Below, piece after piece: positions 11,345 through 25,697 of a DNA stretch of 64,000 bases; position 1 is the first letter of the stretch; each line of letters opens with the position of its first letter. A model generated the notes under the pieces. That model was given only the letters and a program-made list of their open reading frames with translations, searched no databases and was not told where the DNA came from. Both the position numbers and the translations under genes were made by a program. This stretch comes from Ignavibacteriota bacterium. Lineage in GTDB: Bacteria > Bacteroidota > Ignavibacteria > SZUA-365. The stretch is taken from assembly GCA_016218045.1 (NCBI GenBank), contig JACRFB010000053.1, positions 1-64,000 of the forward strand. The letters are read 5' to 3'.

Positions 11345-11349
11345 TGTCG

Positions 11350-11545
11350 GACAGCGGGAGAGCGGGACAGCGGGACAGCGGGATAGCGGGATAGCGGGAC
11401 AGCGGGACAGCGGGACAGCGGGGCAACGGGACAGAGACACAGTGTCTCGCTGAGTCCCGCGAAGCGGGAAAGCGCGACGGGACAGCGGGACAATGGGACA
11501 GAGACACAGTGTCTCGCTGAGCGGAGTCGAAGCGCGACGGAACAT
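11350..11545. repeat. AGCGGGAC octamer array with palindromic modules
   Basis: About ten degenerate copies of the octamer AGCGGGAC/AGCGGGAT (11350-11430), then two copies of a module containing the perfect palindrome GAGACACAGTGTCTC (11434-11448 and 11501-11515, 67 bp apart) followed by CGCTGAG and GAAGCG stretches. This is the reverse-complement form of the array at 1-190. It fills the space between the convergent ABC permease and the transpeptidase gene and could act as a hairpin terminator there. Confidence 0.85.
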
Positions 11546-11565: not shown

Positions 11566-12321
11566 TCAGCGAGTACGAACGGTGTAGGAGCCGTGGGGTG
11601 TTGTAGTGACGCGCGGCACGGACTTTTCCGCCTCGAAAGCTGTGTACACTGTTTCGAGTCCGGTCCAGAAACGCAGCAGGTCGGCATCATTCCGAGCATT
11701 CTTGCGAAGCACGTCGTACACATCACCCTGCATTCTGCACGGGAAGACGTGGACGGGAATGCCGCGCTGGCCGGCGCGGCGCGCGTCGGAACACAGGATG
11801 TATAGCTCCTGTATTTCCTCGGTGCTGATCGAGATGCAGCCGATACTGACACACATGCCGTGTATGTAGATGTCGCCACCGAGACGCCGCGTGCGCGGAT
11901 TCCGCGCGCGGTCGGCCGCGTTGGGGTAATCGATGCGCATGGAGAGGTGGTAGCTGCTCCACGGATTAAAGAGGTCGATCGTATAACACCCCTCGGGGAT
12001 CTGGCCGTCGCCCTCCTCGTTTTTCGGGCCCGCTTCGCCCGACGTTCCGCAGATCCGGTACTGTCGCAGCTTCACACACCCGTCCCCGCGCTGCGCCCAC
12101 ACCTCCACCACGCGCTCCTCCTTGAACACGCGCAGATAGAGCCGCAGGGTGGCGCGTGTCACACCCGCGGCGCGCACGGCCGCTGTGAGCGCCGAATCGG
12201 TGGCACGGCGAGCCGCCGCGACACGCGGTGTTTCACGGACGGCGCGCTGCGCCGCGTTCTGCGCCGACACAGCCGCCACGAGCAGCACACAGAGCACAAA
12301 GATTCGTCGTAGCATTGTCAT
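11566..12321 (-). CDS. L,D-transpeptidase (YkuD/YafK-like) family protein
   Basis: A 251-residue exported protein with an N-terminal signal peptide (MLRRIFVLCVLLVAAVSA). The catalytic motif of L,D-transpeptidases is seen as IYIHGMCVSIGCISIS, with His in IHG and the nucleophile Cys in IGCIS near residue 162. Upstream is IPEGCYTIDLFNPWSSYHLSM, typical of the YafK branch. Such enzymes form 3-3 peptidoglycan cross-links, attach lipoproteins or trim such links in the periplasm. It lies downstream of the GldM-like gene, separated by a strong hairpin, so it may be a separate unit. Confidence 0.85.
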   Translation of the reverse strand: MTMLRRIFVLCVLLVAAVSAQNAAQRAVRETPRVAAARRATDSALTAAVRAAGVTRATLRLYLRVFKEERVVEVWAQRGDGCVKLRQYRICGTSGEAGPKNEEGDGQIPEGCYTIDLFNPWSSYHLSMRIDYPNAADRARNPRTRRLGGDIYIHGMCVSIGCISISTEEIQELYILCSDARRAGQRGIPVHVFPCRMQGDVYDVLRKNARNDADLLRFWTGLETVYTAFEAEKSVPRVTTTPHGSYTVRTR

Positions 12322-12411: not shown

Positions 12412-13884
12412 TTATTTCAACGCCGTCTCGTCGCGGTACAGCGTGAGAGGATACCGTTCGCGCACATTCCCCGCGCTGATCGACACGATGGCGGGCGTGC
12501 CCTCGGTCGAGACTTTGCCCTTCAACGAGAATATCAGCAGCGTGTAGGCCGGATACGTGCGCAGCTCGACATCGTCAAGCAGATCCCTTCCGGCCTCATC
12601 CTCCACCGACAGCGTGATCTCGCCCTGTTGTACCGGAACGCTGTACTCGCTGCGGCGTCGGCCGTAGCGCGATATCTCGACCTCGAATTTCTGGGTGATG
12701 GGATACTCGCCGTTACGCACGAACGTGGAGGGATCGATACGATACGGCGTGTCCTCGACACGGATCACAAACTCGGACGACCCCCGGCCCTTGACGGAGT
12801 AGGGCTTGCCGTCGTACGTGGCGCGGAGCACAAGATTCCCCGCCTTCACGGGTTTGAATTCCACATCCTGTCCGCTGCGCCCGAGCACTTCGCGCCCGTC
12901 TTGCAGCAGTTGCCACTTGTACTTGCTCGAGACCGTGAGGCCTGCGACACCGATACGCGCGCGGAAGGTTTCGTGCACGAACACACGCTGCGGCACCGCG
13001 GTGCCGGCCGCGTCGGACACCGACACGGTGAACGCCGCGGTCGCAGCGCTCTGCGTGCCTTCACCCCGATTGTCGTGCGCCGACAGAGTGACACGGTGTT
13101 TGCCCGGTTCGGCGAAGGAGCCCTTCCACACCAGCCCCGCGCCCTCCGCGATGACCGTGCCGCTGCTCGGGGTGATGGAGACACGCGAGGGATCCGTGCC
13201 CGACACGGAGACCGGCACGGCGACCTCGAAACCCGCGGCGGTTTCGGCGTCGGCCACGTCGAGCGAGAGCGGATCGGCGTCCGACACCACCGTGACAGCC
13301 ATGCTCGACGTCACATGTTCACTGCGGCGCAGCATCGTGTCGGCGCTCATGCCGGTGAGCTGTTCGAAAACCGCGCGCTCGATTTCGAAGTCGCCGATGC
13401 GGATTTTGCCGCCGCCGCTCAATCCTGCAAAATCAGTGCCCGTGACACCCTCGAAGGTGTAGCGCCCCGAGGATCCGGGACGGAAGTCGAAGACGAAGGC
13501 CTGTTCGCCATTTTCGTTGCGAAGGAATTCACTGCGGATGTCGCGACCGAATCGCAGCGTGTCCACAACACGGCCGTCGCGGCGCACGGTGATGCGCGGA
13601 CTGACGGTCACCTGCCTGTCGGGACCGAGTCCCATCACCGCAAATCGAATCGCGCGCGTTTCGCCCACACGCATCATCGCGCTGCCGCTGGTCACGGCGA
13701 CGGGGATGCTGTTGGCGAGCTGCAGAACCACCTTCCGCACCATGTCACGCAGCCGTTCCTGCTCGGCGAGCAGGGCGCTTTCGGCGTCGTCGCGTTCGAC
13801 GATGATGATAAGCAGTTCGCAGACCACGGCGAGGTACAGGAAGAAATAGACCTGGTACTTGGCGTAATGACGGGCGCTGTTCAT
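12412..13884 (-). CDS. GldM-like membrane-anchored periplasmic protein
   Basis: A 490-residue protein with one N-terminal membrane helix (about 12-30, FFLYLAVVCELLIIIV) and a long periplasmic part rich in beta strands that looks like several Ig-like domains, ending in a domain with PYRIDPSTFVRNGEYP. This topology, with a basic residue just before the helix, matches GldM/PorM, the periplasm-spanning half of the type IX secretion motor. The gene follows a GldL-like gene by 11 bp with a GGAGG ribosome-binding site, the normal gldL-gldM order. The sequence is too divergent to be certain, and an unrelated anchored Ig-domain protein is possible. Confidence 0.6.
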   Translation of the reverse strand: MNSARHYAKYQVYFFLYLAVVCELLIIIVERDDAESALLAEQERLRDMVRKVVLQLANSIPVAVTSGSAMMRVGETRAIRFAVMGLGPDRQVTVSPRITVRRDGRVVDTLRFGRDIRSEFLRNENGEQAFVFDFRPGSSGRYTFEGVTGTDFAGLSGGGKIRIGDFEIERAVFEQLTGMSADTMLRRSEHVTSSMAVTVVSDADPLSLDVADAETAAGFEVAVPVSVSGTDPSRVSITPSSGTVIAEGAGLVWKGSFAEPGKHRVTLSAHDNRGEGTQSAATAAFTVSVSDAAGTAVPQRVFVHETFRARIGVAGLTVSSKYKWQLLQDGREVLGRSGQDVEFKPVKAGNLVLRATYDGKPYSVKGRGSSEFVIRVEDTPYRIDPSTFVRNGEYPITQKFEVEISRYGRRRSEYSVPVQQGEITLSVEDEAGRDLLDDVELRTYPAYTLLIFSLKGKVSTEGTPAIVSISAGNVRERYPLTLYRDETALK

Positions 13885-13895
13885 GACCGGCCTCC

Positions 13896-14741
13896 TTAGA
13901 GCGCCTTCGACGGCCTGATCGACGACGAGACCAGCGCGCCGTGACGCTCCTCCAGTTCGCGGATCACCGACTGCAGGCGCGCCTTGACATCCTCGTACGC
14001 CAGGTCGCCCGCTGGCGGTGGCGGCGCCTCGGGAAGCTCACCGCCTGTGTCGCGCTCGTACCATGTGGTCATGCCGAGCATGCACAACACGCTGATCTCG
14101 ATGATGATCGCAACGATGATGAGATCGGGCTGATGCGGCACCAGGAATTTAATACCGCGGAGTCCGATAATCAGGATCAGGAACGCGGTGCCGATGAATG
14201 CGAGTGCCGTGATGTTGTTCCGGTACAGCGGGATGAAGTCCTCGCGCATGAAGCCCGCGAAGGCGGTGCGGATGCGGCCTCCGCGCGAGAGCCATTTCTG
14301 CGGCTCGCGCGTGAACAGGCGCCCCAGATCGGGCGCGATGGATGTGGCGAGCAGGAATTTGCCCGTCGCCTTGTGCAGCGCGCCGCGGAACAGGATGAGC
14401 CCGAGCGGAGTGAAGAACAGCACGACGCAGAGCAGCGACAACGCGAGCACCGACGTGATGACACGCATGTCGATGATGAACGTCGAGGTCCCGATGCGGG
14501 TCACATATTCTCCGCTCCACAGATTCGCAAAAACACCGCCCTCGGAGGGCAGGAGGCGCTGCAATTCGGCGATGCTGGCCTGCGTGAGATCACGTGCGGG
14601 CGTTTCGGCGCGCAGGCGCGATTGTAAGTCGGACAGCGTGATGCCGCCCTGTGTATCGAAATCGGCGGGGGCGGGCATCGCGAACGCCGAAACGGCGCAG
14701 ACGAGTGACAAGACGATAGCGGCCAACAGGAAGTGTTTCAT
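13896..14741 (-). CDS. GldL-like inner-membrane protein with N-terminal extension
   Basis: A 281-residue membrane protein. After a signal-like segment (1-21) and a polar stretch come hydrophobic helices at about 94-118, 177-201 and 206-228. The last two form a hairpin resembling GldL: helix, GIKFLVPHQPD, then IIVAIIIEISVL with a glutamate (E215) buried in the second helix, placed like the proton-pathway glutamate of GldL. Canonical GldL has only this hairpin at its N-terminus plus a cytoplasmic tail; here about 170 residues precede it. ATG 14741 has AGGAGG at ideal spacing and gives the clean signal segment, so it is preferred to the upstream start at 14783. Confidence 0.6.
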   Translation of the reverse strand: MKHFLLAAIVLSLVCAVSAFAMPAPADFDTQGGITLSDLQSRLRAETPARDLTQASIAELQRLLPSEGGVFANLWSGEYVTRIGTSTFIIDMRVITSVLALSLLCVVLFFTPLGLILFRGALHKATGKFLLATSIAPDLGRLFTREPQKWLSRGGRIRTAFAGFMREDFIPLYRNNITALAFIGTAFLILIIGLRGIKFLVPHQPDLIIVAIIIEISVLCMLGMTTWYERDTGGELPEAPPPPAGDLAYEDVKARLQSVIRELEERHGALVSSSIRPSKAL

Positions 14742-21308: not shown

Positions 21309-21390
21309 TTAAGACGTAAAGAGGTAAAGACGTAAAGGGGTAAAGACGTAAAGAGGTAAAGGGGTAAAGACGTAAAGAGGTAAAGGGGCA
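21309..21390. repeat. TAAAGNNG octamer array
   Basis: About ten copies of an 8-bp unit alternating TAAAGACG, TAAAGAGG and TAAAGGGG, starting a few bases after the acyl-CoA dehydrogenase stop. A reverse-complement array of the same family lies at 21587-21636, so the two face each other across about 200 bp. Confidence 0.85.
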
Positions 21391-21394
21391 AAGT

Positions 21395-24780: not shown

Positions 24781-25020
24781 CGAGCCCCGCAACGGGGGGC
24801 GGCATTCTCCAACCCACGCCGTCAGGCGTGGGAGTGGGTGGCACCGCGAGATTCACAAGAGCCCGCGAAGCGGGCGGCATTCAGAGGTCGAATGCCTGGA
24901 GTGTGAATTCCTCAATGCTGGATACGCTCCAGTGTGCGAACCCGCGAGTGGACATGTCTCCCATGTTTTTCACACTCCACGGCAAGGCGTGCGAGATGGT
25001 TCCGCTTGGAGCCCTGGAAT

Positions 25021-25262
25021 GTCGCCCCTCCGGGGCTCACGTGAAGACGTCGGTGCGCGCGTCTCCCACGCCTGACGGCGTGGGTTGATGAATGTCGCCC
25101 CGCCGGGGCTCACGTGAAGACGTCGGTGCGCGCGTCTCCCACGCCTGACAGCGTGGGTTGATGAATGTCGCCCCGCCGGGGCTCACGTGAAGACGTCGGT
25201 GCGCGCGTCTCCCACGCCTTACGGCGTGGGTTGATGAATGTCGCCCGCTTCGCGGGCTTGGG
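25021..25262. repeat. 73-bp tandem repeat with nested hairpins
   Basis: Three full units start at 25021, 25094 and 25167, and a fourth, partial unit at 25240. Each unit has a GCCCC(G/T)CCGGGGC hairpin, a constant middle (CACGTGAAGACGTCGG) and the hairpin CCCACGCCTGACGGCGTGGG with one-base variants. Separate copies of the second hairpin lie near 24806-24836. There is no spacer diversity, so it is not a CRISPR array; the form is that of a tandemly amplified REP-like element. Confidence 0.85.
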
Positions 25263-25500: not shown

Positions 25501-25697
25501 TCATACCGTGTTTTTAACGGGCGACCGCCGGTCGCCCCTGTCGGATTTCACACGCGTGTCGCGCACACATCGAATAGATCGCCCAGAGAAACGGATCATT
25601 TTGTCGTCTGATCGTCTGATCGTCTAATCGTCTGATCGTCCAATCGTCTGATCGTCTAATCGTCTAATCGTCTAATCGTCTAATCGACTGATCGCCG
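25501..25697. repeat. Dispersed composite repeat, copy 2
   Basis: Same order of parts as 24622-24780: TCATACCGTG, hairpin GGGCGACCGCCGGTCGCCC, conserved core, then a longer run of about a dozen TCGTCTGA/TCGTCTAA octamers reaching almost to the aspA start. The octamer number differs between copies, suggesting expansion or contraction. Confidence 0.8.

Follow-up and report, generated by a model that had tools for sequence, protein, structure and literature searches.

A stand-alone GldL/GldM-like gene pair in an Ignavibacteriota bacterium, a candidate copy of a clade-specific ion-driven motor

The described systems closest to the locus studied here are GldL/GldM, ExbB/ExbD with TolQ/TolR (PF01618 and its partner family), and MotA/MotB. 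ExbD, TolR and MotB carry an acidic residue in the transmembrane (TM) helix. GldL (with GldM in PDB 6YS8, 7SAT, 7SAU, 7SAX and 7SAZ) has two TM helices only and a long cytoplasmic tail, and type IX secretion (T9SS) in F. johnsoniae requires its residue E49, which lies in the second helix (PMC8986121). A review found no conclusive sequence homology between GldLM and other 5:2 motors (PMC9389320), and a recent stator study deferred the question of where GldLM belongs (PMC12505986). We analyzed a stretch of 64,000 nucleotides from an Ignavibacteriota bacterium (contig JACRFB010000053.1, positions 1 to 64,000; hereafter the window), in which a first-pass annotation had read two adjacent genes as a divergent GldL/GldM-like pair and a possible new branch of the Gld/Por motors.

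Two intact minus-strand open reading frames fill positions 12412-14741 of the window. The first, the third gldL-like copy of its genome (L3, 281 aa), lies at 13896..14741, with its ATG at 14741, its last codon ending at 13899 and its stop codon at 13896-13898. After a gap of 11 bp it is followed by the gldM-like gene M3 (490 aa, 12412..13884). The gene order, L then M, is that of GldL/GldM, and the GldL/GldM-like order and topology that had been claimed were borne out by the reading frames, hydropathy and AF2 models. L3 and M3 are homologous to GldL2 and GldM2 of a seven-gene cluster described below; L3 shares 49% identity with the GldL2 copy on contig C44 of its own genome, and M3 shares 34-37% identity with the cluster GldM2 over its full length. 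Both reading frames have a normal coding signature. Since more than 12 genomes carry full-length homologues of both genes in the same order, chance reading frames are excluded. A promoter scan upstream of the pair found nothing. Directly downstream, on the same strand, lies an L,D-transpeptidase (YkuD) gene (11566-12321), which is not kept beside the other stand-alone pairs. The window also contains 8-bp tandem repeat arrays at 40-189, 11349-11434, 21311-21393 and 25604-25694, and a 73-bp repeat of 3.2 copies at 25017-25246.

Hydropathy and an AF2 model of L3, built on a 19-sequence alignment (pLDDT 73.5, pTM 0.51), predict a signal-like segment and, after it, three TM helices, with E215 as a buried glutamate. 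The signal-peptide-like segment covers residues 1-21 (14679..14741, minus strand, as are all features of the pair), within which AF2 places a low-confidence helix at 2-19. The first TM helix after it spans residues 92-118 (14388..14468; alignment, hydropathy and AF2) and is followed by cytoplasmic helices. The hairpin consists of a long helix with TM A at residues 157-197 (14151..14273), including the invariant G184, and TM B at residues 206-230 (14052..14126), which contains E215 and is also seen in a class-wide hairpin alignment; a short tail helix follows at 249-274. Many cluster copies of L begin with a similar signal-peptide-like segment ending in A-Q at the same place in the alignment, which makes an N-out mature L with three TM helices probable. 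The first-pass annotation had stressed the N-terminal extension of L3. The extension is real, as hydropathy and AF2 place the signal-like helix and TM 92-118 before the hairpin, and 18 homologues share it; however, it is not peculiar to this pair but normal in the L2-type family.

The hairpin of L3 resembles that of GldL in its hydrophobic character, in a Lys near the turn and in an invariant Glu in the second helix. E215 (codon 14097..14099) is invariant in 19 close homologues and occupies the place in the hairpin that matches GldL E49, of which it is the proposed counterpart. Residues K198, H203, P205 and E215, already pointed out in the first reading, and also W227 and Y228, are family-invariant and retained in L3, and across the class every aligned hairpin carries the Glu. 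Unlike GldL, L3 has a signal-like segment, an extra TM helix and a cytoplasmic stretch ahead of the hairpin, and its tail is short.

For M3, an AF2 model built on an 18-sequence alignment (pLDDT 86.4) predicts one long helix (residues 2-58) followed directly by about four beta domains, in agreement with the earlier description of a partner with one helix and stacked beta domains. The single TM helix (residues 10-29, 13798..13857; alignment and hydropathy) lies inside the signature YFxLYLxVxxELLIxIxERDxAE. The stacked Ig-like domains cover residues 62-483 (12436..13701; mean pLDDT 86), and their Foldseek matches were generic Ig-domain chains only; in sequence searches M3 had only Ig/PKD-type matches, all sub-threshold. 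M3 shares with GldM a single N-terminal TM helix and a beta-domain shaft. It differs in having no helical first domain (D1), as had been noted, since its strands start at residue 62 of the model, and in carrying an invariant glutamate in the TM helix. This residue, E23 (codon 13816..13818), is invariant in 18 GldM2-type proteins and absent from the GldM1 type. M3 retains all the family-invariant residues K9, E23 and E30-D33.

We compared the pair with known families. Neither L3 nor M3 had a match over threshold in Pfam, NCBIfam or PDB sequences; L3 had no hmmscan match to TIGR03513 (GldL) and no Pfam match to MotA_ExbB (PF01618), and M3 matched neither TIGR03517 (GldM) nor a canonical-GldM profile. 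Against canonical GldL, hhalign gave 3.5% for L2, 16.6% for L1, 27.9-31.3% for 2-TM relatives and less than 1% for 4-TM relatives. Here the 2- and 3-TM forms lay a little above a block-shuffled null, in which 2/150 to 10/150 shuffles reached their score, whereas the score of the 4-TM set was reached in 97/150. The values against canonical GldM were 0.2-1.3%, and those against ExbB 0.1-5.5% (L2, 0.2%). The 4-TM set was slightly above the null for ExbB (3/150 shuffles reached the score) and the other sets were not above chance; single low shuffle counts weigh little here because ten query-target pairs were compared. Homology to canonical GldL, at 28-31% in the best case, is suggestive only. The idea of a new Gld/Por motor branch holds insofar as known models do not cover the pair, but the sequence comparisons do not place it within GldL/GldM.

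In a Foldseek search with the L model, 10 of the 41 listed matches were ExbB/TolQ chains, all 41 at E >1, and no solved GldL chain was listed although such chains exist. The predicted layout is nearer to ExbB/TolQ (3 TM) and, in the relatives, to MotA (4 TM) than to the 2-TM GldL. L shares with ExbB and TolQ the 3-TM layout and a long cytoplasmic part, and M has the acidic TM residue of ExbD and TolR, so a likeness to ExbB/TolQ would lie in layout and weak fold matches. The differences are the lack of a sequence match, the position of the conserved Glu in a hairpin, and the chain of Ig-like domains that forms the periplasmic part of M3. The MotA-like feature of class relatives of L is four TM helices parted by a long cytoplasmic segment; there is again no sequence match, and the known partner of L is not an OmpA-type peptidoglycan binder. 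Close sequence kinship to ExbB was not supported by Pfam, hhalign or the shuffles. A Tyr-Leu pair in the TM helix of M recurs in that of canonical GldM but is too short to weigh. An anti-phage (Zorya-like) system was rejected, since the pair had no PADLOC match.

A protein search over 149 genomes of the class showed that close homologues of the pair occur throughout its own family and in part of the order, in genomes deposited as uncultured Ignavibacteria, Bacteroidetes, Bacteroidota or Chlorobiota. With paralogues and orthologues this widespread, a new isolated branch unique to the locus was rejected. Across the family and order the genes form a conserved seven-gene cluster, L1-M1-L2-M2-barrel-barrel-VWA/OmpA, which is complete on contig C44 (locus L031) of the same genome and in several relatives with a long enough contig, with matching fragments in others. 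M1 and M2 are homologous end to end (hhalign 100%, E 2e-41), and L1 and L2 have the hairpin in common (82%, E 1e-5). The pair was correctly set apart from porK/N-type genes: there is no gldK/gldN linkage, and the cluster contains barrel-like and VWA/OmpA genes instead. The cluster barrels gave no hhalign match to GldK, GldN or PorP, the PorP reference being a single sequence.

Because this paralogous L1-M1-L2-M2 cluster sits on another contig, the window pair is an extra copy, and the genome holds three L-M pairs. Five orphan pairs lie outside any cluster, namely the window pair and those at L044, L045, L048 and L050. They have no conserved neighbours, apart from sorting-tail cargo genes beside the pair in two genomes. 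Their position outside clusters and their grouping as one clade in both the L and M trees (100/99) mark the window pair as a stand-alone duplicate of the cluster L2-M2. In the two trees the window copies sit on long branches (2.02 and 1.18), which makes their exact place less sure. In its own genome, L1 (L031:11628-12407) has Gln where 13 other aligned L1-type proteins have the hairpin Glu, which suggests that it may be an inactive or regulatory motor subunit. L2 and L3 are therefore the L copies with GldM-type partners and an intact hairpin Glu.

The GldL-like hairpin turns up throughout the class, and two aligned sets, of 31 and 27 sequences, keep G184 and E215 without exception; the L1 of this genome, with its Gln, is not among them. 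Three builds were found. The L1 type and short proteins (L149-L152, for example) have two TM helices (2-TM), L2 and the window copy have three behind the signal-like segment (3-TM), and proteins of about 325-520 aa have four (4-TM). For L2, hhalign gave 99.3% (E 6e-21) against the 4-TM and 98.6% against the short 2-TM forms. At all six loci scanned, 4-TM forms of about 450 aa directly precede a protein of 1740-1940 aa with a Peptidase_C25 domain (PorU-type); at L164, L168 and L169 no Peptidase_C25 neighbour stands beside the 4-TM form. At most short 2-TM loci two genes make up the GldM-like partner, with barrel-like genes after them (split partners at L149, L150, L151, L152, L154 and L156), and hhalign to M2 gave 97.3% for the TM helix with the first domain and 97.1% for the separate remainder.

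At five further loci, a 4-TM GldL-like protein is followed by an AAA_16/STAND-type ATPase with no GldM (L032:8532-11826, L033:8793-12021, L040:8919-12278, L034:3564-7453 and L039:8671-14456), the assignment at L033 being from sequence likeness only. The L039 ATPase continues through a TM segment into BNR repeats and a weak sorting tail, and the L040 pair had no PADLOC match. An ion-motor-like ring paired with an ATPase would be unusual.

We examined the link to type IX secretion. The genome encodes SprA and at least 150 matches to Por_Secre_tail, the type IX sorting tail. A whole-genome profile search gave no match to TIGR03513 or TIGR03517, so that no second, canonical gldLM was detected, the paralogous L1-M1-L2-M2 cluster being found instead. 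We then searched a phylum sample of 148 genomes with profiles for SprA_N, canonical GldL (at the cut-off of that model) and the GldL-like hairpin. SprA_N matched in 117/148 genomes, and canonical GldL was over the cut-off in 36/148, none of them in the class studied here. The hairpin was found in 20 of the 148, all of this class and all 20 SprA-positive, and no genome had both the hairpin and canonical GldL. This mutual exclusion and the SprA positivity fit a replacement motor. Among the 36 SprA-positive genomes of the class, 16 had no detected GldL-like hairpin, so that their T9SS must depend on another component or on a more divergent one. The co-occurrence is thus one-way, and a T9SS role for the family is something we infer. 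Many SprA-positive genomes of other lineages had neither canonical GldL nor the GldL-like hairpin. GldN was not found in relatives, in a search in which no positive control rang.

Several explanations were weighed. We favour, with somewhat better than even confidence, the view that duplication of the cluster L2-M2 gave rise to the pair as a third, stand-alone copy of an ion-driven GldL/GldM-like motor of the 5:2 type that is specific to the clade. What counted for it was the gene order in more than 12 genomes, the orphan clade, SprA and sorting tails without canonical GldLM, the distribution of the hairpin and of canonical GldL in the phylum sample, the C25 linkage, the invariant Glu pair, the AF2 topology and the ExbB/TolQ chains among the Foldseek matches of L. 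Counted against it were the lack of a significant match to canonical GldL, GldM, ExbB or MotA, Foldseek values of E >1, the one-way co-occurrence, the missing GldN and the absence of conserved neighbours. The most serious competitor, though doubtful, is an ExbB/TolQ- or MotA-type motor of another stator lineage, unrelated to T9SS, which would power outer-membrane maintenance, uptake or surface gliding, with VWA/OmpA as cell-wall anchor; the ion-driven principle would be unchanged. The 3-TM layout of L3 with its long cytoplasmic part, the 4-TM relatives, the acidic residue in the partner's TM helix, the ExbB/TolQ chains in the weak Foldseek list, the 3/150 shuffle result and the OmpA-VWA gene within the cluster all suit it. 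However, the MotA_ExbB profile and hhalign to ExbB speak against such a lineage, true MotA/ExbB-family proteins are present separately in the same genomes, class homologues adjoin a PorU-type peptidase, and in our sample the family is confined to SprA-positive genomes.

It seems improbable that the orphan pair lacks motor activity and is a duplicate in decay or put to another use. The long window branches and the occurrence in five genomes only, with no conserved neighbourhood, would agree with decay, whereas neither frame is broken, the coding signature is normal, the invariant hairpin and TM residues of both proteins are kept, and the pair is retained in four other genomes. Still less credible is a membrane pair that is no motor, such as a scaffold or transporter with Ig-like periplasmic arms; although no experimentally characterized homologue was found, the invariant buried hairpin Glu, the invariant Glu in the partner's TM helix and the stator-like layout argue for a motor.

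The pair, read as a motor copy, probably works like a 5:2 ion motor. Several L subunits would ring two M helices, E215 of L and E23 of M would provide the path for protons (or Na+), and the M dimer would turn or tilt, so that force would go through the beta-domain shaft to outer-membrane partners. In this uncultured class of Bacteroidota the family probably serves the T9SS envelope machinery in place of the standard motor, and the orphan copy most likely drives a separate T9SS-linked task, which may be a second secretion task or surface movement. On a more speculative and rather unlikely view, the family is intermediate between GldL and the MotA/ExbB/TolQ stators: the T9SS motor would have arisen as a MotA-like ancestor shed its first helices, a history that the 4-TM, 3-TM and 2-TM members of this one class would record. 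The class would run T9SS on the older forms and would combine two types of motor, one whose M has the membrane Glu and one whose M lacks it.

The family is missing from the curated libraries searched, and its architecture is closer to flagellar or TolQ/ExbB motors than to the known GldL. Its combination of a GldL-type hairpin Glu with MotA- or TolQ-like extra helices makes the question of GldLM placement testable. T9SS genomes outside the best-studied lineages are often without a recognizable motor, as the 117 SprA-positive genomes against 36 with canonical GldL illustrate, and the GldL-like family may be the motor in some of these cases.
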